From the NCBI GenBank assembly GCA_019828595.1, contig JAHQRK010000041.1, positions 124,001 through 188,000 on the forward strand: a stretch of DNA of 64,000 nucleotides. The letters are read 5' to 3'. The notes under the pieces were generated by a model, which worked only from the letters and a program-made list of their open reading frames with translations, made no database searches and was not told the origin of the DNA. Positions within the stretch are counted from its first letter, which is position 1; every line of letters starts with the position of its first letter. Both the position numbers and the translations under genes were made by a program. Shown piece after piece: positions 8,826-56,820 of the stretch. The stretch comes from Aphanomyces cochlioides (lineage: Eukaryota > Oomycota > Saprolegniomycetes > Saprolegniales > Verrucalvaceae).

Positions 8826-8828
8826 GAA

Positions 8829-38637: not shown

Positions 38638-38710
38638 TCCTCTATAGCTCAGTTGGTAGAGCGTACGGCTGTTAACCGTAAGGTCGCAGGTTCGAACCCT
38701 GCTGGAGGAG
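38638..38710 (+). tRNA. tRNA-Asn-GTT: tRNA-Asn (anticodon GTT)
   Basis: Identical gene, anticodon 38671-38673, TTTT at 38714. The 5' flank is the start of the A element. Confidence 0.98.
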
Positions 38711-39662
38711 TTCTTTTCTCTCTTTTGCATATCCATAACTGATCACCAATACAAATACTGACGTGTAGATTCTCGGCATGTCTTCTTCGAGTCAACATAT
38801 GCGTAAATAAGAAGACTATGTCACGCCAATCCAATACCAGTCCTTTATCTCCAATATGATGTGGAATGGCCTCAAAATTGCTGCTCATCAACTAGTGCGC
38901 AAGTCATTGCAGAATACATAAGAGAAACTCCAATGAGCGATTCTCTGACAGCAACAGATGTGCGCCACGCTAACTTGGCTTGTATTGGACTTGAGGAGAG
39001 ATCACTCATATGGTGTCTTTTAGACTTTGTCAACTGATATCTTAGACAACGGATCACGGTCGTCAAGAGCGACCTAGAGACAAGTATTCCATTGACTTGG
39101 TTTGAAATATCATAGCACATGGATGTACTCACTCCATTACCTTGTTCTTTGCATAGAATGTGATCGTCTCCAATGTGGACTGTGTCAAATTTCGGTGGTA
39201 TACATGGACATATTTTCACGACGTTAACATCGATCGAAATCAATCCATATACCGCATCTCAAGACCACAATCGTAACATTCCTACCATTTTATGCAGCTT
39301 GCTGCCAAACATATTCTGGAGAAAGTTCTGTCGCATATGTGTGTGATATTGCTGTTATGCATCTGTGTGAATCGTTTCTTGGCTTGTCGACTGACAGCGC
39401 CAACAAAGCAGAAATGACACAGACTTGAAATAGTTGTGAAGATAGTCTCAATTACAGTATTGAGATATTTACAAACACGACAAATGATATCATTAAAAGG
39501 TGCACAGCAGAATAAAACGTGTCCATTCTTTCCTCGCGTCTTAATCAAAGATGTCAGAAGCTACTCATTCTATAGACTTGATGTGAAAGCTATTGCGAGT
39601 TGGATGTGTTTGTTGCGATCACGTCGATAAGTTGGAAGGGATATGCAAAAGAGAGAAAAGAA
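38711..39662. other. Spacer 1, third copy
   Basis: 952 bp with the perfect 24-bp terminal inverted repeat. No gene recognised. It lies outside the 20.7-kb duplication, so its identity to the other copies reflects the older tRNA array. Confidence 0.85.
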
Positions 39663-39735
39663 CTCCTCCAGCAGGGTTCGAACCTGCGACCTTACGGTTA
39701 ACAGCCGTACGCTCTACCAACTGAGCTATAGAGGA
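39663..39735 (-). tRNA. tRNA-Asn-GTT: tRNA-Asn (anticodon GTT)
   Basis: Identical gene on the minus strand; TTTT in transcript sense at 39656-39659. Its nucleotide 1 (39735) is followed at once by the 5' end of a full-length B element, with no extra base. Confidence 0.98.
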
Positions 39736-39787
39736 AGTTTCCAATTTGCCAGCTACCCCGCAGTACCACTCTACGCTATCTGACAAT
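39736..39787 (+). promoter_or_regulatory. 5' UTR / putative promoter, family B
   Basis: 52 nt; the first 35 are identical to the family A leader and the last bases before the ATG (TGACAAT) are also similar. Such a conserved non-coding start in two otherwise diverged elements implies selection for transcription start, RNA structure or template jumping. Second B copy: 47081-47133. Confidence 0.55.
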
Positions 39788-42787
39788 ATGGTTGCTACCC
39801 GCTCGACCAACCCTCGTGCCCCATCTTGCTCCTCCGCGTTCTCTCCCTCGGCGTCCAGCCCCAGCGATATGGACGTCATCGTCGTTGCTGACCCATCCCC
39901 AAGCGATACCGACATGGCGTCGTCGTTGGAAGAGGACGTCGACGATGCTTCCAACGCTTCGCATCATGACGCGTCTACGAATCCGCTCCCTACTCCAACG
40001 CGCGTTCCGTTTCCACGTCAACGTGCAACCCCTTCGAAACCGCGCCGTTTTGAACCCTTGCCTGTGACTCGCTCGACGAAGGCTTGCGATCCCGCGAATG
40101 ATCCAACGACCTCTGACACTTGCGACGAAGCCTGGCAAGACGGCGTTCCAACCTCGGAAGATGTGCTCATGACGTCAACGACCTTGCCCGAAGAATCTCC
40201 ATCAACCACGTCCATCGTGAGTGATGGTGGCTTGCCTGGCAAGACTCCGTTGGGTTCTGTTCCTTTCGAGAATGTTCTCTCGACGAGTGATAGTGGCTTC
40301 TCGAAGACTCGCTCAAGCACCGACGTCAACATGACGACATGTCAAGGAAGATTCGAGAACAGTCCATCCCTGAGTGAAGGTCCCTTCTCGAAGAATCCCC
40401 CGAGCGACAAGTCCACTCTGGCGACAGGTCAAGATCCCATCGAGACTAGTCGCTCCATGAGTGATGGTCTCTTCTCGAAGAATCATCGGGCAAGATCTGG
40501 AACAATCGCGAACAACCCTGTGGCCAGTGTTGGTCATGGGAATACTCAAGACCAAGTCACCCATGGAAGCTTCTCGAAGTCCAACGCGAGTGAAGGTCAA
40601 ACGTGTGACTCTGTCCACCATGGGACAGGGTCCGGACAAGACCAAGCCTCTGACGCACGCTTGAGTGTTGGTCTGACGCACGACTCGGACTCTCACTCAG
40701 TCCGCCAGCCATCGTCTCAGGCTTCACCCGGATCGCATTTGGAAAACATTTCTCAATCTGGCGGAGCCCAGACACCTGGCCGTGGCCAACCCAACAACCG
40801 CCAGGCCCCCAACGACGTATGGGCCTTCCAAGCGCAACAGCGGTCTCAGTCTCCCAAGGCCATCAAGACCAAGGACGTTGCTCCTTACCAGCCCACGATG
40901 GAGGAACTCGAACCCCTCCTTCGCAAGCGTGCTGCTGGAACCCTCACGTTTGAAGACACCCTCCCGATCCAGAAGCACTCGGCGCGCGGCATCGTCGGCT
41001 GGTTGCAGATGCCCACGGGTGCACACACGAAGACCATCGATGTTTCAGCTGCCATGGCATCGATCCTTTTCGACAACCAAGCCCTCGGCCTCGACACTGC
41101 GATTGCTGACATTGTGAGATGCGAGAAGGACATCCCGAACCGCATGCTCAAGTGGGGTGTTGCCTCTCACGAAGCGATGACGAAGCTGCGAGGCATCGCG
41201 TTTAAGATTCAAGTCGCTCGAGATGGCTCGTCCCAACACTTCACGATGAACGTTCCGCACGTCCTCGGCGGATTTTTCATGGACATCCCTCAAGGCCTTC
41301 AAGATCAAGACGAAGAGCGCCTGATCTTCGACGTCATGACCAAGTTGGAGCCACGCTTCCTGTGGGGCTCCTACCCCAACGTTTCCTCTTCAAGCGGTAT
41401 GGCGAGCTCTCGGTACCGCCTTTACTTTGAAGGAACCTCCGTACCAACGACCATACAGCGCGACGGCCGTCTCGTCGAAGAAATTCTTTTCAAGGGCCGT
41501 TGTCTCCGCGTGTACGGTCAAGGGTGGTATTTTCGTGACAAGAACTTGGTTCGTTTGGACCTTGATGCAACGTCCCGCCAATATGGATTGAACAAGCCAG
41601 CTCCCAGCCCAACCAACCCGCCTTCTTCGACTCCCAAGGCGCCAAAACGTCGGAAAACTGCGCAAGCCAACCCTCCGCAGTGGACTGGCGTCAAGGCGTC
41701 GAGAGGCAAGCGCAAGAAGACGCAACAGCAAGTGGATTCCCCCGAGCATGGCCGCTCTTGGATTTCGCCCAACATGTTTGAAGCCCTCGACGAACGTGTG
41801 TGTGTCAACCCCGAGGAACACGTTGCTCAGTTTGGCGATTACAAGATCTCAACGATTGTACCCAAGCTGGACGTCTCGGATGACCCTCCCCACCTCCCTA
41901 CGTCCGGTCAATTTGTCGGCGGCACCAAGATCCAAGATGGCGTTCCCAAGCGCATAGAAATGTCTCTTGACGAAATTCTCGCCGAACTACAAGACCTCGA
42001 CACCAAGACAGCCAAAGTTCCATTGCATCTCTCAACCCAAGTCGAAGATGCAGTGACCAACAGCTCGTTCAACCTTGCCCAACTCATCAACGACGGCCGC
42101 GTCGATATGCTGTGTAGCCATCTCGAGCGTTCCCCGATTGAATTTGGCTTGCAACTGCACCGACTTTTTGATGAAGACCGTGCATGCTTTGAGTACTTTG
42201 TGAGACAACGCCTCCTCCATCGGTGGCTTCGAGCGACTTGGGGTGGAGACAAACCGTTCTCCCAGCTGTACTCATTGACGTGGGGTGTGCGTATGACCCG
42301 CGAGCACGTTCAAGCCATCTTCAGCAACATCGAGCTATTCAAGAACATCGACTTCATCGATACTACCATTGACGGCGACGAGATTTCCCTCCACCGCGGC
42401 GACCTGGAAGAAGTGTTGGCTGTGGCAGAAGTTCTCTTGGCCATTCATGCTCCAACGTACTACAACAGTGATGCTGCGATCGTGGCCTCTACCAAGTACC
42501 CGGTCACTGCACTGGCTTCTCATTTGGGCTCCCGCTGTTTGTCGGGCGTATCGCTATCTGCCATATTGCTTGACACGAGCTTCGGCCTCTTGATTTGGAA
42601 TATCATGGAAACGTTGTATGCCGGCGAAGACGAGAAGTCGCGATACGTCTTGACCACGATCCTGGAATTCCATGAGGCTGGCTCCCTGGACCCCACCTTC
42701 GACAACCAAGTGATGTTCCAACCCGACACTCAGACACTCATGCTGGGAGATGTTGCGAACGCAACGTCTGTCGCGTTCCGTGGCTAA
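39788..42787 (+). CDS. Family B ORF1 protein (999 aa)
   Basis: Start chosen at the first ATG (MVATRSTN), which aligns with the A ORF1 start; an upstream TTG in the leader is ignored. Residues ~1-340 are low-complexity and contain a degenerate ~29-residue repeat marked by S(D/E)G-x-FSK. The core from NDVWAFQAQQR to FKGRCLRVYGQGWYF, the basic GKRKKT patch, the SWISPNMFEALDERV block and the C-terminal region all match A ORF1. It ends CGT GGC TAA. The first-cistron position implies an RNP protein; no known domain recognised. Confidence 0.88.
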   Translation: MVATRSTNPRAPSCSSAFSPSASSPSDMDVIVVADPSPSDTDMASSLEEDVDDASNASHHDASTNPLPTPTRVPFPRQRATPSKPRRFEPLPVTRSTKACDPANDPTTSDTCDEAWQDGVPTSEDVLMTSTTLPEESPSTTSIVSDGGLPGKTPLGSVPFENVLSTSDSGFSKTRSSTDVNMTTCQGRFENSPSLSEGPFSKNPPSDKSTLATGQDPIETSRSMSDGLFSKNHRARSGTIANNPVASVGHGNTQDQVTHGSFSKSNASEGQTCDSVHHGTGSGQDQASDARLSVGLTHDSDSHSVRQPSSQASPGSHLENISQSGGAQTPGRGQPNNRQAPNDVWAFQAQQRSQSPKAIKTKDVAPYQPTMEELEPLLRKRAAGTLTFEDTLPIQKHSARGIVGWLQMPTGAHTKTIDVSAAMASILFDNQALGLDTAIADIVRCEKDIPNRMLKWGVASHEAMTKLRGIAFKIQVARDGSSQHFTMNVPHVLGGFFMDIPQGLQDQDEERLIFDVMTKLEPRFLWGSYPNVSSSSGMASSRYRLYFEGTSVPTTIQRDGRLVEEILFKGRCLRVYGQGWYFRDKNLVRLDLDATSRQYGLNKPAPSPTNPPSSTPKAPKRRKTAQANPPQWTGVKASRGKRKKTQQQVDSPEHGRSWISPNMFEALDERVCVNPEEHVAQFGDYKISTIVPKLDVSDDPPHLPTSGQFVGGTKIQDGVPKRIEMSLDEILAELQDLDTKTAKVPLHLSTQVEDAVTNSSFNLAQLINDGRVDMLCSHLERSPIEFGLQLHRLFDEDRACFEYFVRQRLLHRWLRATWGGDKPFSQLYSLTWGVRMTREHVQAIFSNIELFKNIDFIDTTIDGDEISLHRGDLEEVLAVAEVLLAIHAPTYYNSDAAIVASTKYPVTALASHLGSRCLSGVSLSAILLDTSFGLLIWNIMETLYAGEDEKSRYVLTTILEFHEAGSLDPTFDNQVMFQPDTQTLMLGDVANATSVAFRG

Positions 42788-45700
42788 GGTGGTCGCGGCC
42801 GGTCTCTTCACCAAGTTCCCCATACTCGAACTGACCACTGCCAACCTCAATGGGCTGAAAGACAACGGACATCTTGTGGCGCGGCGACTCCAAATTCCGA
42901 CCCAAGCCGTTTTCTTTCAAGAAACCAAAATCAATAACATCAAACATCTCGAAACCTTCCAACTCCACCTCAACAACGAAGTAGGCGTTGGCAAATACAA
43001 GCTCTTCACCAACGATCTCCGCACTGATCGCGTCGACTCACTCAACAATCGGCGCTGCGGTGTGGCATCGTATTTCCATGGATCCATGCCTGGATTCCTC
43101 GACCTGCAACACTTGACCACCCATGACCGACCTGGAAGATACATGGTTGTTCGAACTCAGTGGGACGGCGTTCCTGTGTACTTTCACAACGTCTATGCCC
43201 CGGTTATCGCTCACTCTCGAGCACCGTTTTTCGACGATCTGCCTCGCGACTTTGAAGACGACAGCATTCACTTTGTCGGAGGCGATTTCAACTTACCCCT
43301 GGAAGAGCATCTGGACGCGACTCGACCTCGCCAAGACCACAACGCTGGTAAGGCGGAATGCATTGCCTGGCTTTCAGCACTTGGTGTTATCGATGCGTGG
43401 AGGATGCACCACCCCAACGAGCGCGTTTACAGCGGCCCTGGTCGAAGCAACCGCCTCGACTACCTGTTTGTGGACCAAGATATCGTCGCTCAAACGTACG
43501 CACGTTCAAGCTATTCCCCAAGCAGCTTTGCAGGCGACCACATGGAACACAAAGTGGTCCTCTCCTGCGAGCAGCGAGCTCCCGACCGAAGTTACTGGCG
43601 CCTCCCCCGTGAGCTCTTAAAGAACCCTCAAGTAGTCGCAGCGATCAAGGCCGAAGCCAATCAACTTTTGGACGAGATGCGCGCAGACGACACTCAAAAC
43701 TTTGGCGCAAAGTGGTACGGCTGGTTGAAGAGAATGAAGAAGCGTCTCCAAGTCAGTCATCGCCAGTACATTGACTCGATGAAGTACACACTCAACAGCC
43801 TCAAGATGAAGTGGCTTACTTCCCGCCGAGCATTCGACATGGGACTCGTTGAGACATCCATTGTTAATACCGCCCGTCAAGCCCTTGACACTGCCCGCAG
43901 CGAGTACCGACAGTTCAACCTGGATCAGCAATTCGACTTTCACGCCAACGTCAACGAGCGAGGTACCAGTCACTTTTTTCGTCGACCCAAGGGGATCAAA
44001 GTGCCGCTCTCGTCCGTGACAATCAACGGTGTAACGTCGACTGACCCGTCTGAAGTCAAGGCTGGTTTTACGTCTCATTGGAAAAACATCATGGTCACTC
44101 CAAGAGACCAACCACCGTTGAATCGGGCCCGTCGCCGAGCTATCATTCGAGCCATTACTCGACGTCTCACTCAAGAACAGCGCGACGCTCTGGAAAGTCC
44201 TCTCACGGCGGAAGACCTGTGCGGCGCGCTCAAGTCTATGAACCCGAACAAGTCTCCTGGTTCAGACGGCTGGCCTGCAGCTTTCTTTCAAGTCTCCCCG
44301 GACGTATTCGCCCAAATCCTGCTCAAGGTGTTCAACTACCAACTCACCCATCACGGTCACCTCCTGCTCCAACAACGCCGAAGTGCAGTGGCGCTCTTGT
44401 TCAAGGCTGGAGACAGAGGCGACCCTGGCAACTATCGGCCGATTACTCTCATGTCGGTTGAAGTCAAGATTCTATCGCGGGCGCTGGCCTACCGTCTTGC
44501 ACAAGTTGCCCCATACCTCGCTCACCCAAGCCAAGCTGGTTTTGTCCCTGGCCGTCGCTTGCACGACCACGTGATGCTGGTACAAGCATTGCAGACTTTC
44601 TGTACCAATGAAGACCACGACTACTACGCGACGTTTCTCGACTTTTCCAAGGCATACGATATGGTTGACCAAGGCTTTCTCTTCGACGTACTCAAGGAGA
44701 TGAACATCGGTCCCACATTTGTGTCTTGGGTTCAGTTGCTTTACAATACGCCTCTGGTCCAGATCATTTTCAACGACGGTCTTGGCCCTACCATACGGCC
44801 TACCCGCGGAGTCAAGCAAGGTTGCCCCCTATCGTGCATGCTCTTCGTACTTTACCTCGAGCCACTCGGCGAAATGCTACGCGGATCTCCTGATTTTGGT
44901 ATTCCCCTTCCAAATGGAGACTCACTGACGAGCATCTACTTTGCCGACGACACGACTCTACTCTCGTCATCCCTCCAAGCGGCGGTCGAGCAAATGGCAA
45001 TTGTCGAAGACTTTTGCTCTGTGTCTGGAGCTCGTCTCAACGTTGCCAAGTGCATGACTTTGGCGCTCAACAACAATCTCGATATCGAAGACATCGACGA
45101 TGGTGGCCTCTTGAACGTCTTGCCGAGCGAGAAGCCAGTGAAATACCTTGGTATTCTCTTTGGCCACCGACTGCCGCGCGATTTTCAAGTCCAGCAACTG
45201 AACGACAAGTTTCTGGCTGCGTTTCAAACGTGGGGAAGTCGTGCGCGAACCATCCAAGGCCGCAAACTCATCGTATCGACCATGTTGTTGTCGTTGTTAT
45301 GGCATGTCACGGCTGCAGTGTATGTGCCTCCAACGATGGTTGCCGTTTGGCAAAGAATGGTCAACAAGTACATCCTTGGTCGGAAGACGCAAATCACCGA
45401 CCATCATCGCTCAACTATTTGCCGCAAGTGGCAGTTCGATCAAAAACTCGGCCTCGGTATTCCGCATGTGGCTTCGAAGCTTCGGACTCAGCGACTGCTG
45501 CGGCTCCAACTCTTGATGCAGCCCAATTCACCCAACACATTTGCCCCATGGAAGTTGCTTGTCAAGAGACAATTTTCCCGTGTCATGAACAAGCTGTATC
45601 GCGACACCCACCCGTTCGACTTTCTCACGTACTTCCCCAACCACAGCTCCAAGTGGTTGTTTTTGTGGGAGCTGCATCCTCTTTGGCACGACATTTGGCA

Positions 45701-46904
45701 TCAATGGGCCGCCACACCTATGGCCAAGCGAACCGCTTCGCCACCAAGCCTCGAAGAACTTTTGAACCTCCCCGTGTGGCTGACATCCTACCCCGCTCTG
45801 CAAGTTGGTCCTGCGGGTGCTACATCAAATGTCGTGAAGACTGCTCTGTGTCGTCGATGGTGTAGACATGCGTCTCAAAACGGTTTCCACTGCCTCAAAG
45901 ACTTCTTGACACGGCAAGGGACATGGCCTACAAGAGCTGCGTTTATTGATCGACTGTCATCCAACAACCGTGCGGCACAAGTGACGTTACAAGCGAACGG
46001 CGCGATGGGATTTGCAGCACCCGAACGTGCTGGTCAAGTTTATAGCCACCTCACCAAGATATTCGACCAAGTCCTCCGCACGTCTGGCGTTCGAACTGGA
46101 ACTGCTTTGACCGATATCGATACAACAAGTCACCCTTTCAAGGCACTTTTCAAAGATCAATTGCTATCCTTCGAGCGTTGGCCCAAGCGACTCGTATCAC
46201 GTTTGGCGCATCACGCCCCTTCGGATGGAAAACCGCACCCAGTGGCGACATCGTCCCGCGTCGAGCAACAAGATATTGCGACCTACGTGCGACTCATCCG
46301 CAAAACATGCCGTTGGCCGCCTCCCCTCCATGGCGACGTTTGGTTTCGACTGTTGTTCAACATGCTGCCTGTCAACTCGCGCTTGTTCTACTTGCAACCT
46401 CAGCAGCCAGACGTAATTTGCTGTGTCTATACCAATTGCGACGCACCGGAGAACCAACACCACGCCTTCCACACCTGCTCTCGCGTGTATCCCCTTTGGC
46501 GTTTTCACGCGACCGCTTGGCGATGCTTCGGTGTCAATTTCGATTGGACTGCCATCACCAACATCGACCGCTTTCAAGTCAACGAACGCGGTAGCCAGCT
46601 TCAAGACATACTGTTTGTGCTCTGGGCTCTTCTGTGTGCTTCCAACCTTCACTATATTTGGACAACGCACAACGCCGCCAAGTTCGAATCGAAGAAGCCG
46701 CCTCCGCCAGAAATTTGGCAAGAAGTCAGCTTCATCCGATGGCATGCATCGATCCGCAGATGGCTTCGCCTCCAAGAAGTTGACAGCCCTCAACGAGTGG
46801 AAGCAATATCAGCAATCAATACTTTGCATAGACAACCTGTCTATCGCCCACTGGTAGCCAAGTACCCGACTTTGCTCGCGCTCCAACCTTCAGCCCCAAA
46901 TTAA
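42750..46904 (+). CDS. Family B ORF2: APE endonuclease-reverse transcriptase
   Basis: 1384 aa from an ATG 38 nt before the ORF1 stop, in the +1 frame. Endonuclease: Asn34 (NLNG), Glu58 (FQET), HNVYAPV ~146-152, Asp179/Asn181 (GGDFN), RLDYLFVD 235-242, Asp263-His264. RT: KSPGSDG ~501-507, NYRPITLMS, motif A Asp631 (LDFSKAYD), RGVKQGCPLS ~686-695, FADD 731-734. C-terminal knuckle C1225-x4-C1230-x7-H1238-x4-C1243, like the zf-RVT type. This layout fits the L1/Tx1-like branch, which is known for site-specific members; exact clade is not established here. It would nick the tRNA gene between nt 14 and 15 and prime cDNA there. Confidence 0.95.
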   Translation: MLRTQRLSRSVAKVVAAGLFTKFPILELTTANLNGLKDNGHLVARRLQIPTQAVFFQETKINNIKHLETFQLHLNNEVGVGKYKLFTNDLRTDRVDSLNNRRCGVASYFHGSMPGFLDLQHLTTHDRPGRYMVVRTQWDGVPVYFHNVYAPVIAHSRAPFFDDLPRDFEDDSIHFVGGDFNLPLEEHLDATRPRQDHNAGKAECIAWLSALGVIDAWRMHHPNERVYSGPGRSNRLDYLFVDQDIVAQTYARSSYSPSSFAGDHMEHKVVLSCEQRAPDRSYWRLPRELLKNPQVVAAIKAEANQLLDEMRADDTQNFGAKWYGWLKRMKKRLQVSHRQYIDSMKYTLNSLKMKWLTSRRAFDMGLVETSIVNTARQALDTARSEYRQFNLDQQFDFHANVNERGTSHFFRRPKGIKVPLSSVTINGVTSTDPSEVKAGFTSHWKNIMVTPRDQPPLNRARRRAIIRAITRRLTQEQRDALESPLTAEDLCGALKSMNPNKSPGSDGWPAAFFQVSPDVFAQILLKVFNYQLTHHGHLLLQQRRSAVALLFKAGDRGDPGNYRPITLMSVEVKILSRALAYRLAQVAPYLAHPSQAGFVPGRRLHDHVMLVQALQTFCTNEDHDYYATFLDFSKAYDMVDQGFLFDVLKEMNIGPTFVSWVQLLYNTPLVQIIFNDGLGPTIRPTRGVKQGCPLSCMLFVLYLEPLGEMLRGSPDFGIPLPNGDSLTSIYFADDTTLLSSSLQAAVEQMAIVEDFCSVSGARLNVAKCMTLALNNNLDIEDIDDGGLLNVLPSEKPVKYLGILFGHRLPRDFQVQQLNDKFLAAFQTWGSRARTIQGRKLIVSTMLLSLLWHVTAAVYVPPTMVAVWQRMVNKYILGRKTQITDHHRSTICRKWQFDQKLGLGIPHVASKLRTQRLLRLQLLMQPNSPNTFAPWKLLVKRQFSRVMNKLYRDTHPFDFLTYFPNHSSKWLFLWELHPLWHDIWHQWAATPMAKRTASPPSLEELLNLPVWLTSYPALQVGPAGATSNVVKTALCRRWCRHASQNGFHCLKDFLTRQGTWPTRAAFIDRLSSNNRAAQVTLQANGAMGFAAPERAGQVYSHLTKIFDQVLRTSGVRTGTALTDIDTTSHPFKALFKDQLLSFERWPKRLVSRLAHHAPSDGKPHPVATSSRVEQQDIATYVRLIRKTCRWPPPLHGDVWFRLLFNMLPVNSRLFYLQPQQPDVICCVYTNCDAPENQHHAFHTCSRVYPLWRFHATAWRCFGVNFDWTAITNIDRFQVNERGSQLQDILFVLWALLCASNLHYIWTTHNAAKFESKKPPPPEIWQEVSFIRWHASIRRWLRLQEVDSPQRVEAISAINTLHRQPVYRPLVAKYPTLLALQPSAPN

Positions 46905-46995
46905 CAAGCCCCAAGTATTTATTCAACAAGTCAAAAATCGCTGTACTCCAAAGCCCAAAGTAGAAAATCTGCTGAAGCATTTGGAAGTGGGATGA

Positions 46996-47045
46996 GCCGT
47001 TAGTAGGCAATATTAGTATTAGTAGATATTGAAAGTCTATTAATA
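46996..47045 (+). promoter_or_regulatory. 3' UTR double hairpin, family B
   Basis: Stem 1 GCC/GGC with a 7-nt loop (46996-47008) and stem 2 TATTAGTAGA/TCTATTAATA, ten pairs including one G-U, with a 9-nt loop (47017-47045). Both occupy the positions of the family A stems, and both families share GGGATGAGCC before stem 1, AATATTAGT between the stems and CCCCATTG at the end. Other copies: 54341-54390, 3801-3850 and equivalents in the remaining truncated B elements. Confidence 0.7.
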
Positions 47046-47066
47046 TACCTCCCCATTGCAGTGCAG

Positions 47067-47080
47067 TGAGCTATAGAGGA
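47067..47080 (-). repeat. tRNA-Asn stub between two tandem B elements
   Basis: TGAGCTATAGAGGA on the plus strand. It is the 3' duplication of the first B element and the 5' border of the second, proof of two independent insertions in one tRNA gene. Confidence 0.95.
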
Positions 47081-47133
47081 TAGTTTCCAATTTGCCAGCT
47101 ACCCCGCAGTACCACTCTACGCTATCTGACAAT

Positions 47134-50133
47134 ATGGTTGCTACCCGCTCGACCAACCCTCGTGCCCCATCTTGCTCCTCCGCGTTCTCTCCCTCGGCGT
47201 CCAGCCCCAGCGATATGGACGTCATCGTCGTTGCTGACCCATCCCCAAGCGATACCGACATGGCGTCGTCGTTGGAAGAGGACGTCGACGATGCTTCCAA
47301 CGCTTCGCATCATGACGCGTCTACGAATCCGCTCCCTACTCCAACGCGCGTTCCGTTTCCACGTCAACGTGCAACCCCTTCGAAACCGCGCCGTTTTGAA
47401 CCCTTGCCTGTGACTCGCTCGACGAAGGCTTGCGATCCCGCGAATGATCCAACGACCTCTGACACTTGCGACGAAGCCTGGCAAGACGGCGTTCCAACCT
47501 CGGAAGATGTGCTCATGACGTCAACGACCTTGCCCGAAGAATCTCCATCAACCACGTCCATCGTGAGTGATGGTGGCTTGCCTGGCAAGACTCCGTTGGG
47601 TTCTGTTCCTTTCGAGAATGTTCTCTCGACGAGTGATAGTGGCTTCTCGAAGACTCGCTCAAGCACCGACGTCAACATGACGACAGGTCAAGGAAGATTC
47701 GAGAACAGTCCATCCCTGAGTGAAGGTCCCTTCTCGAAGAATCCCCCGAGCGACAAGTCCACTCTGGCGACAGGTCAAGATCCCATCGAGACTAGTCGCT
47801 CCATGAGTGATGGTCTCTTCTCGAAGAATCATCGGGCAAGATCTGGAACAATCGCGAACAACCCTGTGGCCAGTGTTGGTCATGGGAATACTCAAGACCA
47901 AGTCACCCATGGAAGCTTCTCGAAGTCCAACGCGAGTGAAGGTCAAACGTGTGACTCTGTCCACCATGGGACAGGGTCCGGACAAGACCAAGCCTCTGAC
48001 GCACGCTTGAGTGTTGGTCTGACGCACGACTCGGACTCTCACTCAGTCCGCCAGCCATCGTCTCAGGCTTCACCCGGATCGCATTTGGAAAACATTTCTC
48101 AATCTGGCGGAGCCCAGACACCTGGCCGTGGCCAACCCAACAACCGCCAGGCCCCCAACGACGTATGGGCCTTCCAAGCGCAACAGCGGTCTCAGTCTGC
48201 CAAGGCCATCAAGACCAAGGACGTTGCTCCTTACCAGCCCACGATGGAGGAACTCGAACCCCTCCTTCGCAAGCGTGCTGCTGGAACCCTCACGTTTGAA
48301 GACACCCTCCCGATCCAGAAGCACTCGGCGCGCGGCATCGTCGGCTGGTTGCAGATGCCCACGGGTGCACACACGAAGACCATCGATGTTTCAGCTGCCA
48401 TGGCATCGATCCTTTTCGACAACCAAGCCCTCGGCCTCGACACTGCGATTGCTGACATTGTGAGATGCGAGAAGGACATCCCGAACCGCATGCTCAAGTG
48501 GGGTGTTGCCTCTCACGAAGCGATGACGAAGCTGCGAGGCATCGCGTTTAAGATTCAAGTCGCTCGAGATGGCTCGTCCCAACACTTCACGATGAACGTT
48601 CCGCACGTCCTCGGCGGATTTTTCATGGACATCCCTCAAGGCCTTCAAGATCAAGACGAAGAGCGCCTGATCTTCGACGTCATGACCAAGTTGGAGCCAC
48701 GCTTCCTGTGGGGCTCCTACCCCAACGTTTCCTCTTCAAGCGGTATGGCGAGCTCTCGGTACCGCCTTTACTTTGAAGGAACCTCCGTACCAACGACCAT
48801 GCAGCGCGACGGCCGTCTCGTCGAAGAAATTCTTTTCAAGGGCCGTTGTCTCCGCGTGTACGGTCAAGGGTGGTATTTTCGTGACAAGAACTTGGTTCGT
48901 TTGGACCTTGATGCAACGTCCCGCCAATATGGATTGAACAAGCCAGCTCCCAGCCCAACCAACCCGCCTTCTTCGACTCCCAAGGCGCCAAAACGTCGGA
49001 AAACTGCGCAAGCCAACCCTCCGCAGTGGACTGGCGTCAAGGCGTCGAGAGGCAAGCGCAAGAAGACGCAACAGCAAGTGGATTCCCCCGAGCATGGCCG
49101 CTCTTGGATTTCGCCCAACATGTTTGAAGCCCTCGACGAACGTGTGTGTGTCAACCCCGAGGAACACGTTGCTCAGTTTGGCGATTACAAGATCTCAACG
49201 ATTGTACCCAAGCTGGACGTCTCGGATGACCCTCCCCACCTCCCTACGTCCGGTCAATTTGTCGGCGGCACCAAGATCCAAGATGGCGTTCCCAAGCGCA
49301 TAGAAATGTCTCTTGACGAAATTCTCGCCGAACTACAAGACCTCGACACCAAGACAGCCAAAGTTCCATTGCATCTCTCAACCCAAGTCGAAGATGCAGT
49401 GACCAACAGCTCGTTCAACCTTGCCCAACTCATCAACGACGGCCGCGTCGACATGCTGTGTAGCCATCTCGAGCGTTCCCCGATTGAATTTGGCTTGCAA
49501 CTGCACCGACTTTTTGATGAAGACCGTGCATGCTTTGAGTACTTTGTGAGACAACGCCTCCTCCATCGGTGGCTTCGAGCGACTTGGGGTGGAGACAAAC
49601 CGTTCTCCCAGCTGTACTCATTGACGTGGGGTGTGCGTATGACCCGCGAGCACGTTCAAGCCATCTTCAGCAACATCGAGCTATTCAAGAACATCGACTT
49701 CATCGATACTACCATTGACGGCGACGAGATTTCCCTCCACCGCGGCGACCTGGAAGAAGTGTTGGCTGTGGCAGAAGTTCTCTTGGCCATTCATGCTCCA
49801 ACGTACTACAACAGTGATGCTGCGATCGTGGCCTCTACCAAGTACCCGGTCACTGCACTGGCTTCTCATTTGGGCTCCCGCTGTTTGTCGGGCGTATCGC
49901 TATCTGCCATATTGCTTGACACGAGCTTCGGCCTCTTGATTTGGAATATCATGGAAACGTTGTATGCCGGCGAAGACGAGAAGTCGCGATACGTCTTGAC
50001 CACGATCCTGGAATTCCATGAGGCTAGCTCCCTGGACCCCACCTTCGACAACCAAGTGATGTTCCAACCCGACACTCAGACACTCATGCTGGGAGATGTT
50101 GCGAACGCAACGTCTGTCGCGTTCCGTGGCTAA
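47134..50133 (+). CDS. Family B ORF1 protein (999 aa), second copy
   Basis: Nearly identical to 39788-42787. Seen differences: Cys to Gly in the repeat region (MTTGQGRF), Pro to Ala (QSAKAIK), Ile to Met (PTTMQRD) and Gly to Ser near the C-terminus (HEASSL). No disabling change. Same 29-residue FSK repeats. Confidence 0.88.
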   Translation: MVATRSTNPRAPSCSSAFSPSASSPSDMDVIVVADPSPSDTDMASSLEEDVDDASNASHHDASTNPLPTPTRVPFPRQRATPSKPRRFEPLPVTRSTKACDPANDPTTSDTCDEAWQDGVPTSEDVLMTSTTLPEESPSTTSIVSDGGLPGKTPLGSVPFENVLSTSDSGFSKTRSSTDVNMTTGQGRFENSPSLSEGPFSKNPPSDKSTLATGQDPIETSRSMSDGLFSKNHRARSGTIANNPVASVGHGNTQDQVTHGSFSKSNASEGQTCDSVHHGTGSGQDQASDARLSVGLTHDSDSHSVRQPSSQASPGSHLENISQSGGAQTPGRGQPNNRQAPNDVWAFQAQQRSQSAKAIKTKDVAPYQPTMEELEPLLRKRAAGTLTFEDTLPIQKHSARGIVGWLQMPTGAHTKTIDVSAAMASILFDNQALGLDTAIADIVRCEKDIPNRMLKWGVASHEAMTKLRGIAFKIQVARDGSSQHFTMNVPHVLGGFFMDIPQGLQDQDEERLIFDVMTKLEPRFLWGSYPNVSSSSGMASSRYRLYFEGTSVPTTMQRDGRLVEEILFKGRCLRVYGQGWYFRDKNLVRLDLDATSRQYGLNKPAPSPTNPPSSTPKAPKRRKTAQANPPQWTGVKASRGKRKKTQQQVDSPEHGRSWISPNMFEALDERVCVNPEEHVAQFGDYKISTIVPKLDVSDDPPHLPTSGQFVGGTKIQDGVPKRIEMSLDEILAELQDLDTKTAKVPLHLSTQVEDAVTNSSFNLAQLINDGRVDMLCSHLERSPIEFGLQLHRLFDEDRACFEYFVRQRLLHRWLRATWGGDKPFSQLYSLTWGVRMTREHVQAIFSNIELFKNIDFIDTTIDGDEISLHRGDLEEVLAVAEVLLAIHAPTYYNSDAAIVASTKYPVTALASHLGSRCLSGVSLSAILLDTSFGLLIWNIMETLYAGEDEKSRYVLTTILEFHEASSLDPTFDNQVMFQPDTQTLMLGDVANATSVAFRG

Positions 50134-53100
50134 GGTGGTCGCGGCCGGTCTCTTCACCAAGTTCCCCATACTCGAACTGACCACTGCCAACCTCAATGGG
50201 CTGAAAGACAACGGACATCTTGTGGCGCGGCGACTCCAAATTCCGACCCAAGCCGTTTTCTTTCAAGAAACCAAAATCAATAACATCAAACATCTCGAAA
50301 CCTTCCAACTCCACCTCAACAACGAAGTAGGCGTTGGCAAATACAAGCTCTTCACCAACGATCTCCGCACTGATCGCGTCGACTCACTCAACAATCGGCG
50401 CTGCGGTGTGGCATCGTATTTCCATGGATCCATGCCTGGATTCCTCGACCTGCAACACTTGACCACCCATGACCGACCTGGAAGATACATGGTTGTTCGA
50501 ACTCAGTGGGACGGCGTTCCTGTGTACTTTCACAACGTCTATGCCCCGGTTATCGCTCACTCTCGAGCACCGTTTTTCGACGACCTGCCTCGCGACTTTG
50601 AAGACGACAGCATTCACTTTGTCGGAGGCGATTTCAACTTACCCCTGGAGGAGCATCTGGACGCGACTCGACCTCGCCAAGACCACAACGCTGGTAAGGC
50701 GGAATGCATTGCCTGGCTTTCAGCACTTGGTGTTATCGATGCGTGGAGGATGCACCACCCCAACGAGCGCGTTTACAGCGGCCCTGGTCGAAGCAACCGC
50801 CTCGACTACCTGTTTGTGGACCAAGATATCGTCGCTCAAACGTACGCACGTTCAAGCTATTCCCCAAGCAGCTTTGCAGGCGACCACATGGAACACAAAG
50901 TGGTCCTCTCCTGCGAGCAGCGAGCTCCCGACCGAAGTTACTGGCGCCTCCCCCGTGAGCTCTTAAACAACCCTCAAGTAGTCGCAGCGATCAAGGCCGA
51001 AGCCAATCAACTTTTGGACGAGATGCGCGCAGACGACACTCAAAACTTTGGCGCAAAGTGGTACGGCTGGTTGAAGAGAATGAAGAAGCGTCTCCAAGTC
51101 AGTCATCGCCAGTACATTGACTCGATGAAGTACACACTCAACAGCCTCAAGATGAAGTGGCTTACTTCCCGCCGAGCATTCGACATGGGACTCGTTGAGA
51201 CATCCATTGTTAATACCGCCCGTCAAGCCCTTGACACTGCCCGCAGCGAGTACCGACAGTTCAACCTGGATCAGCAATTCGACTTTCACGCCAACGTCAA
51301 CGAGCGAGGTACCAGTCACTTTTTTCGTCGACCCAAGGGGATCAAAGTGCCGCTCTCGTCCGTGACAATCAACGGTGTAACGTCGACTGACCCGTCTGAA
51401 GTCAAGGCTGGTTTTACGTCTCATTGGAAAAACATCATGGTCACTCCAAGAGACCAACCACCGTTGAATCGGGCCCGTCGCCGAGCTATCATTCGAGCCA
51501 TTACTCGACGTCTCACTCAAGAACAGCGCGACGCTCTGGAAAGTCCTCTCACGGCGGAAGACCTGTGCGGCGCGCTCAAGTCTATGAACCCGAACAAGTC
51601 TCCTGGTCCAGACGGCTGGCCTGCAGCTTTCTTTCAAGTCTCCCCGGACGTATTCGCCCAAATCCTGCTCAAGGTGTTCAACTACCAACTCACCCATCAC
51701 GGTCACCTCCTGCTCCAACAACGCCGAAGTGCAGTGGCGCTCTTGTTCAAGGCTGGAGACAGAGGCGACCCTGGCAACTATCGGCCGATTACTCTCATGT
51801 CGGTTGAAGTCAAGATTCTATCGCGGGCGCTGGCCTACCGTCTTGCACAAGTTGCCCCATACCTCGCTCACCCAAGCCAAGCTGGTTTTGTCCCTGGCCG
51901 TCGCTTGCACGACCACGTGATGCTGGTACAAGCATTGCAGACTTTCTGTACCAATGAAGACCACGACTACTACGCGACGCTTCTCGACTTTTCCAAGGCA
52001 TACGATATGGTTGACCAAGGCTTTCTCTTCGACGTACTCAAGGAGATGAACATCGGTCCCACATTTGTGTCTTGGGTTCAGTTGCTTTACAATACGCCTC
52101 TGGTCCAGATCATTTTCAACGACGGTCTTGGCCCAACCATACGGCCTACCCGCGGAGTCAAGCAAGGTTGCCCCCTATCGTGCATGCTCTTCGTACTTTA
52201 CCTCGAGCCACTCGGCGAAATGCTACGCGGATCTCCTGATTTTGGTATTCCCCTTCCAAATGGAGACTCACTGACGAGCATCTACTTTGCCGACGACACG
52301 ACTCTACTCTCGTCATCCCTCCAAGCGGCGGTCGAGCAAATGGCAATTGTCGAAGACTTTTGCTCTGTGTCTGGAGCTCGTCTCAACGTTGCCAAGTGCA
52401 TGACTTTGGCGCTCAACAACAATCTCGATATCGAAGACATCGACGATGGTGGCCTCTTGAACGTCTTGCCGAGCGAGAAGCCAGTGAAATACCTTGGTAT
52501 TCTCTTTGGCCACCGACTGCCGCGCGATTTTCAAGTCCAGCAACTGAACGACAAGTTTCTGGCTGCGTTTCAAACGTGGGGAAGTCGTGCGCGAACCCTC
52601 CAAGGCCGCAAACTCATCGTATCGACCATGTTGTTGTCGTTGTTATGGCATGTCACGGCTGCAGTGTATGTGCCTCCAACGATGGTTGCCGTTTGGCAAA
52701 GAATGGTCAACAAGTACATCCTTGGTCGGAAGACGCAAATCACCGACCATCATCGCTCAACTATTTGCCGCAAGTGGCAGTTCGATCAAAAACTCGGCCT
52801 CGGTATTCCGCATGTGGCTTCGAAGCTTCGGACTCAGCGACTGCTGCGGCTCCAACTCTTGATGCAGCCCAATTCACCCAACACATTTGCCCCATGGAAG
52901 TTGCTTGTCAAGAGACAATTTTCCCGTGTCATGAACAAGCTGTATCGCGACACCCACCCGTTCGACTTTCTCACGTACTTCCCCAACCACAGCTCCAAGT
53001 GGTTGTTTTTGTGGGAGCTGCATCCTCTTTGGCACGACATTTGGCATCAATGGGCCGCCACACCTATGGCCAAGCGAACCGCTTCGCCACCAAGCCTCGA

Positions 53101-54250
53101 AGAACTTTTGAACCTCCCCGTGTGGCTGACATCCTACCCCGCTCTGCAAGTTGGTCCTGCGGGTGCTACATCAAATGTCGTGAAGACTGCTCTGTGTCGT
53201 CGATGGTGTAGACATGCGTCTCAAAACGGTTTCCACTGCCTCAAAGACTTCTTGACACGGCAAGGGACATGGCCTACAAGAGCTGCGTTTATTGATCGAC
53301 TGTCATCCAACAACCGTGCGGCACAAGTGACGTTACAAGCGAACGGCGCGATGGGATTTGCAGCACCCGAACGTGCTGGTCAAGTTTATAGCCACCTCAC
53401 CAAGATATTCGACCAAGTCCTCCGCACGTCTGGCGTTCGAACTGGAACTGCTTTGACCGATATCGATACAACAAGTCACCCTTTCAAGGCACTTTTCAAA
53501 GATCAATTGCTATCCTTCGAGCGTTGGCCCAAGCGACTCGTATCACGTTTGGCGCATCACGCCCCTTCGGATGGAAAACCGCACCCAGTGGCGACATCGT
53601 CCCGCGTCGAGCAACAAGATATTGCGACCTACGTGCGACTCATCCGCAAAACATGCCGTTGGCCGCCTCCCCTCCATGGCGACGTTTGGTTTCGACTGTT
53701 GTTCAACATGCTGCCTGTCAACTCGCGCTTGTTCTACTTGCAACCTCAGCAGCCAGACGTAATTTGCTGTGTCTATACCAATTGCGACGCACCGGAGAAC
53801 CAACACCACGCCTTCCACACCTGCTCTCGCGTGTATCCCCTTTGGCGTTTTCACGCGACCGCTTGGCGATGCTTCGGTGTCAATTTCGATTGGACTGCCA
53901 TCACCAACATCGACCGCTTTCAAGTCAACGAACGCGGTAGCCAGCTTCAAGACATACTGTTTGTGCTCTGGGCTCTTCTGTGTGCTTCCAACCTTCACTA
54001 TATTTGGACAACGCACAACGCCGCCAAGTTCGAATCGAAGGAGCCGCCTCCGCCAGAAATTTGGCAAGAAGTCAGCTTCATCCGATGGCATGCATCGATC
54101 CGCAGATGGCTTCGCCTCCAAGAAGTTGACAGCCCTCAACGAGTGGAAGCAATTTCAGCAATCAATACTTTGCATAGACAACCTGTCTATCGCCCACTGG
54201 TAGCCAAGTACCCGACTTTGCTCGCGCTCCAACCTTCAACCCCAAATTAA
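50096..54250 (+). CDS. Family B ORF2: APE endonuclease-reverse transcriptase, second copy
   Basis: 1384 aa with all motifs listed for 42750-46904. It differs at a few sites: KSPGPDG (the canonical RT-0/1 motif) where the other B copies have KSPGSDG, LLDFSKAYD for FLDFSKAYD in motif A, LNNPQ for LKNPQ, KEPPPP for KKPPPP and a terminal STPN. All catalytic residues are present, so both tandem B copies look coding-competent. Confidence 0.95.
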   Translation: MLRTQRLSRSVAKVVAAGLFTKFPILELTTANLNGLKDNGHLVARRLQIPTQAVFFQETKINNIKHLETFQLHLNNEVGVGKYKLFTNDLRTDRVDSLNNRRCGVASYFHGSMPGFLDLQHLTTHDRPGRYMVVRTQWDGVPVYFHNVYAPVIAHSRAPFFDDLPRDFEDDSIHFVGGDFNLPLEEHLDATRPRQDHNAGKAECIAWLSALGVIDAWRMHHPNERVYSGPGRSNRLDYLFVDQDIVAQTYARSSYSPSSFAGDHMEHKVVLSCEQRAPDRSYWRLPRELLNNPQVVAAIKAEANQLLDEMRADDTQNFGAKWYGWLKRMKKRLQVSHRQYIDSMKYTLNSLKMKWLTSRRAFDMGLVETSIVNTARQALDTARSEYRQFNLDQQFDFHANVNERGTSHFFRRPKGIKVPLSSVTINGVTSTDPSEVKAGFTSHWKNIMVTPRDQPPLNRARRRAIIRAITRRLTQEQRDALESPLTAEDLCGALKSMNPNKSPGPDGWPAAFFQVSPDVFAQILLKVFNYQLTHHGHLLLQQRRSAVALLFKAGDRGDPGNYRPITLMSVEVKILSRALAYRLAQVAPYLAHPSQAGFVPGRRLHDHVMLVQALQTFCTNEDHDYYATLLDFSKAYDMVDQGFLFDVLKEMNIGPTFVSWVQLLYNTPLVQIIFNDGLGPTIRPTRGVKQGCPLSCMLFVLYLEPLGEMLRGSPDFGIPLPNGDSLTSIYFADDTTLLSSSLQAAVEQMAIVEDFCSVSGARLNVAKCMTLALNNNLDIEDIDDGGLLNVLPSEKPVKYLGILFGHRLPRDFQVQQLNDKFLAAFQTWGSRARTLQGRKLIVSTMLLSLLWHVTAAVYVPPTMVAVWQRMVNKYILGRKTQITDHHRSTICRKWQFDQKLGLGIPHVASKLRTQRLLRLQLLMQPNSPNTFAPWKLLVKRQFSRVMNKLYRDTHPFDFLTYFPNHSSKWLFLWELHPLWHDIWHQWAATPMAKRTASPPSLEELLNLPVWLTSYPALQVGPAGATSNVVKTALCRRWCRHASQNGFHCLKDFLTRQGTWPTRAAFIDRLSSNNRAAQVTLQANGAMGFAAPERAGQVYSHLTKIFDQVLRTSGVRTGTALTDIDTTSHPFKALFKDQLLSFERWPKRLVSRLAHHAPSDGKPHPVATSSRVEQQDIATYVRLIRKTCRWPPPLHGDVWFRLLFNMLPVNSRLFYLQPQQPDVICCVYTNCDAPENQHHAFHTCSRVYPLWRFHATAWRCFGVNFDWTAITNIDRFQVNERGSQLQDILFVLWALLCASNLHYIWTTHNAAKFESKEPPPPEIWQEVSFIRWHASIRRWLRLQEVDSPQRVEAISAINTLHRQPVYRPLVAKYPTLLALQPSTPN

Positions 54251-54405
54251 CAAGCCCCAAGTATTTATTCAAAAGTCAAAAATCGCTGTACTCCAAAGCC
54301 CAAGGTAGAAAATCTGCTGAAGCATTTGGAAGTGGGATGAGCCGTTAGTAGGCAATATTAGTATTAGTAGATATTGAAAGTCTATTAATATACCTCCCCT
54401 TGCAG

Positions 54406-54419
54406 TGAGCTATAGAGGA
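54406..54419 (-). repeat. tRNA-Asn stub followed by original 5' flank
   Basis: The 14-bp duplication after the distal B element, followed by TTCCATACTATAC, exactly the flank of the empty sites at 8901/8902 and 29610/29611. It marks the right end of the insertion cluster in tRNA 39663. Confidence 0.96.
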
Positions 54420-55302
54420 TTCCATACTATACTTCCCTCACCGTTTCAAACATACACTCATACAATACCTACAATGACAATCCATATCACACCCGTGCAT
54501 CATGTCACCGTCGTAGTCACCACTCGCTTCTCCGAATATCGACACATTTATACAGAGAAACTACGTCACCAGGCACACCGACGCTTCTCTCAGATAAAAC
54601 ATTGTTGATAAACTCGAGACCTTCACTTCGACAATCTACACCAGCACATGGAACAAGAATTATACACTTTCATGACTGTCAAAAACATCCTATTCAGAAA
54701 GCCTCGAAAACACTACCACCATTTCTGTAGAATGTGAAACAAAATCAAGTCCAATCAAGATGATATGAACTGTTTGAAACAAGTTGAGCGATGTTGCTTG
54801 ATGGATTGAGTACGATAAACAGTTGGTGTAGCTTTGCTGTTGTTTAGTGAAAAGAATTTAATGTTGTGCCGAATGGAAATATGATTGATATTCTGATTGA
54901 ACATGTGTTTACCAGGTATATTTTTGTTTCATGGAAACCTATGAATTTGTTCTGCGGAGTATTGAGGATATACCCTCCCATTCCTTGCGCGAGCAGGAGA
55001 CTGATATGCTCTCAATAAGTCGATGTACCGCACGAAACTTTGTTTCGGACAAGATTTCGATCCGAAGAAGAGTCAAAATCGGAACTGCTCGCGTATTTTA
55101 GACGGGTATCATGTCCATGTGAAATTTTGATGTCCATTGGTCGAATCGTGTTTTTGTGGAGAGATTGGAGTGTAAAGTGTTTGTTTTGATTGACGTGTGT
55201 TTGGTTACGATGTGCATAATGTCTGTGTCCGTGGTGGTTGTTTGCAGTGGAAAGGATTGTATGAGTGTATGTGTGGCACGGTGGGTATACGATAGTATGG
55301 AA
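54420..55302. other. Spacer 2, third copy
   Basis: 883 bp, the interval that once separated tRNA 39663 and tRNA 63448, now flanked by LINE 3' ends on both sides. No gene recognised. It lies outside the 20.7-kb duplication. Confidence 0.85.
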
Positions 55303-55316
55303 TCCTCTATAGCTCA
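55303..55316 (+). repeat. tRNA-Asn stub at 3' end of A element
   Basis: tRNA nucleotides 1-14 after the flank GATAGTATGGAA; partner intact gene at 63448. Confidence 0.95.
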
Positions 55317-55394
55317 ATGTCAATGGGGAGTCTATTTGTAGTTAATGTAAACTACAAACTAATATTGCCCGAAGGCTCATCCCATTTCCAACTG

Positions 55395-56603
55395 CTAGGC
55401 TGAATTGGAAATCAATTTGGCTTTTCGTTTTCTTGATTCGCTTCGACGTTGGGACTTCGATTTCTTCGGTGTTTGTAAGCTAACACGGCGAATATGTCGG
55501 ATAAAACTGACTCTTGGCATCTGACCCAGGGGGTATACATTTTCATTGTCTTGGATCATACATAGACTTCGGTCTATGCAGCGCTTGTATCGCTTGGCGA
55601 GGACCCAGCAATGGGATGTTGAATCAGTGACAGAAACAACCAAGAATTCTCCGTCAGGCTCATCCAATATCGCTCTACAGATATCACGAATTGGATCACC
55701 CACCGATTGCTTGAGCAGTTGACGGGAGAATATGGCGTCGTTGTAGTGGAATCCATGTGTGTATGCCAGCTTGAGAAAATCATGCATCTTGGAAGGGGGA
55801 ATGCCCGCGTCGTGAGGAACTCCATGGGCCTCTTTGAAACCCGAAATGACTTCTTCGCTGAGCTCAAAATTGGAGACATTCAAATTGGTAGCAACGATTC
55901 GGATTGCAGCCGCAAGACAAGATTTGTCACTGTTGTTGCCAATTTCTAGCCACAGAGGATCCATCGCTCGAAATTCAGCAAGCGTTGGGGCGAGACCAGT
56001 GTTCGTGAGGAAGTGGGCTCCAGCTTGTCGCCATCGTTGGTACATCGCCACGGCTTCTTGACACCCGCTGAGGTCTTTTTCGTCGAACCAGTCTTTGTCG
56101 AGTCCATCCGGGCGTTGAAACTTCCAGTTGACTTGGTATTGAATAGTTGAAATTCGATTTCGCATTGATGCCACTTCGCGGTGGTCATCGATAAACAACA
56201 CTTCATCGATGTCATCATCGTCGGTTGGAATTCGCAGAGTGCGTGGGCGGTTGGTTGGGGCATCAGCCGTTGTCGCATTCGTTTGTGGCCTGGCTGGAAC
56301 AGAAACATCGTCCAATAGATCCATGAGGGATGGTAGCGGAGATCCATTGTCATTGCCCAAGGGGTCAAATTCGCGGGTGCTCGAGTTCAAAATGGACATA
56401 TCAGGAGTAAATTGGTGTTCTTCAGTTGTAACTGGACTTGAAGGACGAGTGTCTTGCGTCATAGGTACAGAAATCTCAACTCCATCCACTCCCTCAAGAG
56501 TAATCCCTGGAGACATCGAGCTCCCCACACCTCGTGTAGTTATGGGTCTCGACGTCTGCGCGGGGAGTACGCTATCGGCAGTGAAAATCGTTGAAGCTTC
56601 CAT
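55395..56603 (-). CDS. Family A ORF3: chromodomain-like + OTU-like protease, variant
   Basis: 402 aa from the ATG; two residues shorter than other copies because of a 6-nt deletion at about 56453 (MTQDTRP for MTQSSDTRP). Small changes include Gln to His (VPHDAG) and Ser to Pro (VGDPIRD). The Cys231/His333-equivalent residues are kept. Upstream, an A-run is nine instead of five bases (56766-56774), which joins this frame to a frame overlapping the end of ORF2 and produces a 632-codon ORF; I keep the ATG start shared by all copies. Confidence 0.62.
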   Translation of the reverse strand: MEASTIFTADSVLPAQTSRPITTRGVGSSMSPGITLEGVDGVEISVPMTQDTRPSSPVTTEEHQFTPDMSILNSSTREFDPLGNDNGSPLPSLMDLLDDVSVPARPQTNATTADAPTNRPRTLRIPTDDDDIDEVLFIDDHREVASMRNRISTIQYQVNWKFQRPDGLDKDWFDEKDLSGCQEAVAMYQRWRQAGAHFLTNTGLAPTLAEFRAMDPLWLEIGNNSDKSCLAAAIRIVATNLNVSNFELSEEVISGFKEAHGVPHDAGIPPSKMHDFLKLAYTHGFHYNDAIFSRQLLKQSVGDPIRDICRAILDEPDGEFLVVSVTDSTSHCWVLAKRYKRCIDRSLCMIQDNENVYPLGQMPRVSFIRHIRRVSLQTPKKSKSQRRSESRKRKAKLISNSA

Positions 56604-56820
56604 TGTTGTTGTCTTGGGTAAAATCAAAAGTGAGTCTTGGAGAATTGTTTTGAGATTCTCACTGAACTTATTCTCAGTTGCGACACTTGAGTCAGGCACG
56701 ATTTGATTGGGCAGTGAAATGTTTTGCGCGGATCGTGAGTGATGGTCGCCAGGATTCCCAATCAAAAAAAAATTCAGCTGGGATACCAAGTCAAGAATAC
56801 AGCTGGGGCTTGTAATCAAA

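Follow-up and report, generated by a model that had tools for sequence, protein, structure and literature searches.

What decides where the long interspersed nuclear elements (LINEs) in a tRNA-Asn array of the water mould Aphanomyces cochlioides come to lie, and what becomes of the tRNA gene that each one enters? The stretch that raises this question, here called the window, is 64,000 nt of contig C36 (C36:124001-188000) in the 76.2-Mb, 94-contig genome of this oomycete, which has been described as an agent of sugar-beet root rot (PMC11653986). All the features treated here are either mobile elements or RNA genes. An earlier note on this DNA had proposed that the elements are LINEs inserting at one exact position inside tRNA-Asn genes. 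We find that the target rule is real, exact and genome-wide, that it takes in many tRNA types, and that the gene entered is rebuilt. We judge it about 90% probable that the three families concerned, A, B and C, are L1-group LINEs in which the endonuclease of open reading frame (ORF) 2, of the apurinic/apyrimidinic endonuclease-like (APE) type, is aimed at the start of the tRNA A box, and that the target is rebuilt and struck again.

Seven tRNA-Asn(GTT) genes, facing both directions, were identified in the window by ARAGORN. The 14-mer TCCTCTATAGCTCA / TGAGCTATAGAGGA occurs there 16 times, seven times as the 5' end of a tRNA-Asn gene and nine times touching an element 3' end (Table 1). Because the tRNA reads TCCTCTATAGCTCA|GTTGG..., this 14-mer corresponds to tRNA nt 1-14, which puts the boundary within the A box. 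Chance is excluded, since the 14-mer is present 171 times in 76.2 Mb and its reversed control not once. The earlier note had placed the same segment at all nine element 3' ends and had read the tRNA genes at 8829 and 29538 as uninterrupted targets; each of the nine was found at its position, the empty sites are real, at 8888 and 29597, and the single boundary between tRNA nt 14 and 15 was confirmed at the junctions. The same outer flank (ttccatactatac...) is present at the empty sites 8888-8901 and 29597-29610 and at the filled site 54406, and the duplication is therefore nt 1-14. The nine 3' ends do not amount to nine events, because most of window positions 1-9800 (1-9.8 kb) is repeated at 20709-30500 (20.7-30.5 kb). 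Long exact duplications, some direct and some inverted, including 3783-7804 versus 43042-47063 and 50388-54272, suggest recombination as a further route of array growth. At 7805-8901, 28513-29610 and 38638-39736 tRNA-Asn genes lie tail to tail, spaced by about 950 bp, forming a repeated array unit.

Exact 15-nt 3' ends of A and B were counted across the whole genome, giving 224 ends for B and 203 for A, with none for the reversed controls. TGAGC follows immediately after 221 of the 224 B ends and after all 203 A ends (424 of 427 in total). The three remaining B ends, two forward (L001, at window position 47066, and L007) and one reverse (L048), carry an extra TGCAG, TGAGTTGCAG or TGTTGCAG ahead of TGAGC; all 427 ends thus reach the target, 424 directly and three past a short 3' repeat. 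The many copies with unrelated 3' flanks that the earlier note had named as fatal to its proposal did not appear. Of these ends 200 were listed, 168 of them outside C23 and C36, the contigs of the tRNA-Asn arrays, and 76 of the 168 were examined letter by letter; the sample excludes the C23 and C36 ends and the other 92 listed ends. All 76 sampled ends are followed by TGAGC[CT]A and seven further letters, making eight kinds of 14-mer, and with Asn and two others there are 11 kinds in total. In tRNA sense, nt 8-14 read TAGCTCA in nine kinds and TGGCTCA in two (TRGCTCA being constant), and nt 1-7 have nothing in common. With 11 different tRNA-type 14-mers, a target confined to tRNA-Asn is rejected; of the earlier note's proposal the in-gene site survives and the restriction to Asn does not. 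One Asn 14-mer, at C32:29839 (L050), has neither an adjacent A or B 3' end nor a tRNA body.

The range of struck genes is equally apparent from the 5' side. A tRNA body, the 14-mer and a LINE 5' end follow one another at Phe-GAA (L128), Lys-CTT (L131), Thr-CGT (L135), Met-CAT (L136), Lys-TTT (L139) and Asn, and the same order, with the whole tRNA body, is present at Tyr-GTA (L141), which has a 35-nt intron. Filled and empty sites with a common flank were found for Asn, for Ala-CGC (L133, where a filled 3' junction has two empty sites next to it) and for a tRNA-Thr-like sequence whose empty twin lies 1.5 kb away. The length of the D-loop varies among struck tRNAs, being shorter in Thr, and the cut is constant after A14. 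No LINE was found at the 5' ends of tRNA-His (TAGTATA, L134) and two tRNA-Val genes (TAGTGTA, L158), three gene copies only, which sit 0.7 to ~4 kb from struck genes.

To describe these insertions as lying inside tRNA genes, as the earlier note did, gives their position correctly and implies a disruption that did not occur, as the 14-bp duplication leaves a whole gene. We tabulated a chosen set of 22 5' junctions rather than all 78 junction kinds; the duplication is exactly nt 1-14 in nine, and the other 13 are compatible with this, having 1-4 further letters in common. Because nt 1-14 are copied, the tRNA gene on the 5' side is whole and again a target. Because the struck gene is re-usable, A, B and C follow one another head to tail, separated by no more than a 14-bp stub, and the listed A and B ends in the C13, C15, C30 and C34 stacks all point in one direction; both LINE directions are present on C23, C24 and C36. 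The stubs examined were of one kind within C13, C15 below 0.27 Mb, C30 and each of the two C34 stacks, as expected if each stack grew at one tRNA type. Clusters of LINE ends beside tRNA genes span ~90-260 kb. Nine copies of B at six kinds of tRNA (L045 and L159 being counted as one place) show no difference in their last 150 nt, and B has therefore spread recently. Roughly 16 distinct 5' truncation points, each 0-2 nt past a 14-mer, were found in A and B (A points 5394 and 5397 may be one) in a survey of occurrences with at least 15 nt on their left and 40 nt on their right; two further points are at separate loci.

Four copies lie away from the clusters, on C1, C12, C15 (1.21 Mb) and C78 (1.22 Mb), each with its own flanks. 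On C12 an A element, full-length by the spacing of its ends with the interior unread, stands at tRNA-Lys-TTT (L139, L055); on C15 a 739-nt A stands at the tRNA-Thr-like sequence (L158); and on C78 a 1778-nt B stands at tRNA-Asn (L159). On C1 (L155:131-233, 3.434 Mb) a tRNA-Lys is followed by 103 nt of U6 small nuclear RNA (Rfam, 101.6 bits) fused to a truncated B, which terminates in the normal B 3' end and a second TGAGCTAAACGGGA. In mammalian L1, U6-LINE fusions are described as arising by template switching (PMC4476161), and the fusion on C1 is a template-switch fossil in an oomycete.

B is 7.3 kb long with two ORFs and A is 8.1 kb long with three. The two families are 64% identical in ORF2 and 56% identical over 664 residues of ORF1; at the nucleotide level, identity is 83% in the first 76 nt and 76% in the last 84 columns. 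For A, C and two forms of B the 3' ends give better folds than shuffled sequences do (z -2.6 to -2.9), and a GCC/GGC hairpin and a long AT-rich hairpin are common to A and B copy 2 and absent from the best fold of B copy 1. Family C (9.07 kb, C23:3916318-3925388) differs from them in its 3' end, and its ORF2, broken in the copy examined, is 37-39% identical to that of B. Three C 3' ends adjoin the Asn 14-mer (L013, L018, L027), and C 5' ends lie directly behind Asn, Ala and Lys 14-mers. Tandem repeats at 57-nt spacing are present in the long 3' region of C (L154, C23:3916280-3925420).

Table 1. Features of the window; strand refers to the forward strand of the contig.
Feature	Position	Strand	Details
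LINE family B, full-length copy 1	39737..47066	+	7330 bp; extra TGCAG at end
B copy 1 ORF1	39788..42787	+	999 amino acids from first ATG; without Pfam match
B copy 1 ORF2	42750..46904	+	1384 amino acids; APE-type endonuclease and reverse transcriptase
LINE family B, full-length copy 2	47081..54405	+	stacked behind copy 1
LINE family A, full-length copy	55317..63447	-	8131 bp
A copy ORF1	63394-60929	-	821 amino acids
A copy ORF2	60936-56821	-	1371 amino acids
A copy third ORF	to 55395	-	overlaps ORF2 end
tRNA-Asn(GTT), empty site	8829..8901	-	ARAGORN and 14-mer
tRNA-Asn(GTT), empty site	29538..29610	-	ARAGORN and 14-mer
Whole tRNA-Asn(GTT)	39662..39736	-	ARAGORN; touches 5' end of B copy 1
tRNA nt 1-14, 5' duplication copy	39722..39735	-	still within whole tRNA-Asn
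Whole tRNA-Asn(GTT)	38638..38710	+	touches 5' end of minus-strand element
Whole tRNA-Asn(GTT)	7805..7877	+	touches 5'-truncated B copy (starts B nt 3306)
Whole tRNA-Asn(GTT)	28513..28585	+	touches 5'-truncated B copy; duplicate of 7805
Whole tRNA-Asn(GTT)	63448..63520	+	at 5' end of A copy
tRNA nt 1-14 at A copy 3' end	9785..9798	+	A from 9799 upward; likewise 30494-30507
tRNA nt 1-14 at B copy 3' end	1953..1966	+	likewise 3771-3784, 22662-22675, 24480-24493
tRNA-Asn nt 1-14, 3' duplication copy of B copy 1	47067..47080	-	B copy 2 begins directly after
tRNA-Asn nt 1-14, 3' duplication copy of B copy 2	54406..54419	-	then native tRNA upstream flank ttccatactatac
tRNA-Asn nt 1-14, 3' duplication copy of A copy	55303..55316	+	

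Profile searches matched ORF2 to human L1 ORF2p (E 1.2e-93) across both the endonuclease (EN) and the reverse transcriptase (RT), and to L1 EN chains down to E 2.8e-11. Pfam Exo_endo_phos scored 15.1 and 17.4 bits on ORF2, below its 24.5 cut-off; despite this, the profile match together with a model of the EN domain (mean predicted local distance difference test score, pLDDT, 85.5), whose best PDB match is the LINE-1 endonuclease (E 9.2e-16), identifies an APE-type endonuclease. Residues D179, N181, D237, D263 and H264 are invariant in the ORF2 alignment and E58 nearly so; we take the invariant residues to be the catalytic Asp, Asn and His of the EN. In PDB sequence searches the RT is nearer to L1 (ORF2p, E 7.2e-57) than to R2 (best 5.8e-25). 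As judged from search scores rather than a tree, A, B and C are L1-group non-long-terminal-repeat retrotransposons of the APE type. The closest named relatives of the ORF2 protein are from oomycetes (Aphanomyces astaci, A. cochlioides, Thraustotheca and Achlya), a date-palm protein being a far relative, and a scan of viral contigs with ORF2 gave no match. Pfam searches with ORF1 of A and B and with the third ORF returned nothing up to E 10, and a piece of C ORF1 matched DUF6840 at 0.0036, under its cut-off. By eye, the third ORF of A (55395-57293 (-), also 9877-11253 (-)) has a chromodomain-like stretch and a Cys...His pair; its best phmmer match was Swi6 at E 1.4 only, Pfam gave none, and its fold (mean pLDDT 36.9) was not used.

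Taken together, these data suggest a pathway in which the tRNA-sense strand would be nicked after A14, in TRGCTCA^G, at the position fixed by the junctions. The free ...GCTCA-OH 3' end would then prime reverse transcription from the 3' end of the LINE RNA, and the opposite strand would be cut 14 nt away, at the mature tRNA 5' end, yielding the duplication of nt 1-14 that is observed. The product is the arrangement seen at the junctions, with a complete tRNA gene, the LINE from 5' to 3', the 14-bp stub and the old upstream flank in that order. Such a tRNA gene retains its A and B boxes, only the upstream flank being replaced, and can be hit again; repeated hits and unequal exchange would build one-way LINE stacks behind each tRNA gene. 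The hallmarks of target-primed reverse transcription (5' truncation, duplication and template switch) are present, and truncated copies, lone copies, empty sites and the U6-LINE fusion all fit this process. The short 3' repeats with TG or TGAG suggest that the LINE RNA may end in a few letters of the target.

Could the common 3' flank instead go back to a single old insertion that was duplicated locally within a tRNA-Asn array? The window does hold long exact direct and inverted repeats, oomycete tRNA genes are described in tandem arrays, and those of Phytophthora infestans appear to grow by unequal exchange (PMC9584435). Against this, the 3' ends lie at 11 different 14-mers, the site is common to A, B and C, truncation points are many, a U6 fusion is present, and the copies on C1, C12, C15 and C78 have flanks of their own. 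These four separate copies exclude local duplication as the sole cause, a reading that we consider very improbable; it still accounts for part of the array copy number. A DNA-mediated route would have its precedent in the Dada DNA transposons, which are reported inside tRNA genes (PMC3706591, PMC8869645). Like A, B and C, they use one exact in-gene tRNA site, and Perkinsus Dada families have as their putative duplication the same A-box letters, TAGCTC (PMC3706591). Dada differs in its DDE transposase, in duplications of 6-7 bp and in using one tRNA type per family in Perkinsus (PMC3706591), whereas the elements here have RT and APE ORFs, 14-bp duplications, 5' truncations and a U6 fusion. These RT-type hallmarks refute DNA transposition, to which we give next to no credence.

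A more serious alternative is that RNA polymerase III (Pol III) machinery sets the position, with TFIIIC on the A box and TFIIIB upstream recruiting ORF1p or ORF2p and the EN reading little of the DNA, as has been proposed for TRE5-A. Nearly all targets are recognisable tRNA A boxes, and TRE5-A ORF1p is described as binding TFIIIB and its targeting as needing the B box (PMC5911963, PMC5006619). The cut here is fixed to the base, however, rather than falling within a range of tens of bases, and it stays after A14 when the D-loop changes length; a degenerate tRNA-Thr-like sequence was struck, and the tRNA-His and tRNA-Val genes near struck genes, three copies only, have no LINE. We consider Pol III recruitment unlikely as the main determinant. 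We tentatively favour direct reading of TRGCTCA by the EN over help from Pol III factors, since the cut is precise, neighbours that lack the motif escape and even a degenerate tRNA was struck.

Several observations weigh against an EN aimed at the A box and a gene that is always rebuilt. The nick, the strand order and the priming are deduced from junctions, and only exact 15-nt 3' ends were counted, such that decayed copies could sit elsewhere. Some truncations within the arrays may be later deletions. Among the 11 14-mers, GGTCGTATAGCTCA (C47) has no tRNA gene read beside it, GGGGATGTAGCTCA is Ala-like by letters only, and one belongs to the degenerate tRNA-Thr-like sequence. A tRNA-Lys with TAGCTCA on C46 is unstruck, on a contig that may be mitochondrial, and in the struck array genes L127 (Phe) and L129 (Tyr) the 3' part is missing or altered, so not every gene stays whole. 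C46 (L142-L144) is AT-rich and has Lys, Ala and Met tRNA genes. At L127 (~3441, its reverse strand, C15) the 5' half of a tRNA-Phe is followed by unrelated sequence in place of the 3' half, possibly owing to a deletion within the tRNA or to a further element.

We tentatively suggest that these families belong to a water-mould LINE lineage whose target-rebuilding cut geometry makes insertion nearly neutral for the gene and the site reusable, with the LINE 5' end becoming the new upstream region of the tRNA gene, which may in turn help to start LINE transcription. The target rule itself was established in A. cochlioides; A. astaci, Thraustotheca and Achlya are known from protein relatives only. 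The reading of a 7-nt multi-gene motif by an APE endonuclease, the placement of the second cut and the origin of LINE-end clusters become testable, and a site at which insertion preserves the gene also holds interest for work on RNA-templated gene insertion.

The earlier note knew of no described LINE with an in-gene tRNA site, and none was found in our literature search; "undescribed" is provisional, as Repbase, Dfam and most subscription papers were outside that search. Its statement that TRE5 and TRE3 insert outside the gene agrees with two papers, which describe TRE5, TRE3, NLTR-A and NLTR-B as landing outside tRNA genes (PMC5006619, PMC5911963). The TRE5 and TRE3 elements of Dictyostelium are alike in having APE, RT and zinc finger, two ORFs and tRNA genes as landing sites, but insert over a spread of distances ~50 bp upstream or ~100 bp downstream (PMC5006619, PMC5911963), whereas A, B and C use the single nt 14/15 boundary. 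Dp_NLTR-A of Dictyostelium purpureum lies 2-6 bp upstream of tRNA nt 1, resembling the LINE 5' end here, and differs in having an RNase H domain; the accessible text of its description mentions no duplication of nt 1-14 (PMC5006619). The tRNA-linked LINEs of these papers thus land outside the gene, while here the internal promoter of many tRNA types is struck and a whole gene is left. Human LINE-1 is similar in its EN fold, its EN-RT profile and its U6 fusions via template switching (PMC4476161). Keno (U2), Mutsu (5S rRNA) and Dewa (tRNA-Leu spacer) are likewise APE-type LINEs with exact multicopy targets (PMC3706591, PMC4640811), Utopia also targets U2, and tRNA genes are named among LINE targets without detail (PMC4640811). 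Dewa, in the tRNA-Leu spacer, lies near a tRNA gene (PMC3706591, PMC8869645) and Keno and Mutsu lie in other genes, whereas A, B and C lie inside tRNA genes.

The exact target in a multicopy sequence that is typical of Tx1-type elements is also found in A and B, all 427 exact ends being at the target. Mutsu, Keno and Dewa are members of the Tx1 clade, and human L1, unlike A, B and C, is not known to have a fixed genomic site. Where the target lies within a gene, as in 28S or U2, LINEs are known to interrupt the copy that they strike. In bacterial islands the att sites restore the tRNA genes, and the reusable site of A, B and C may be a eukaryotic counterpart.

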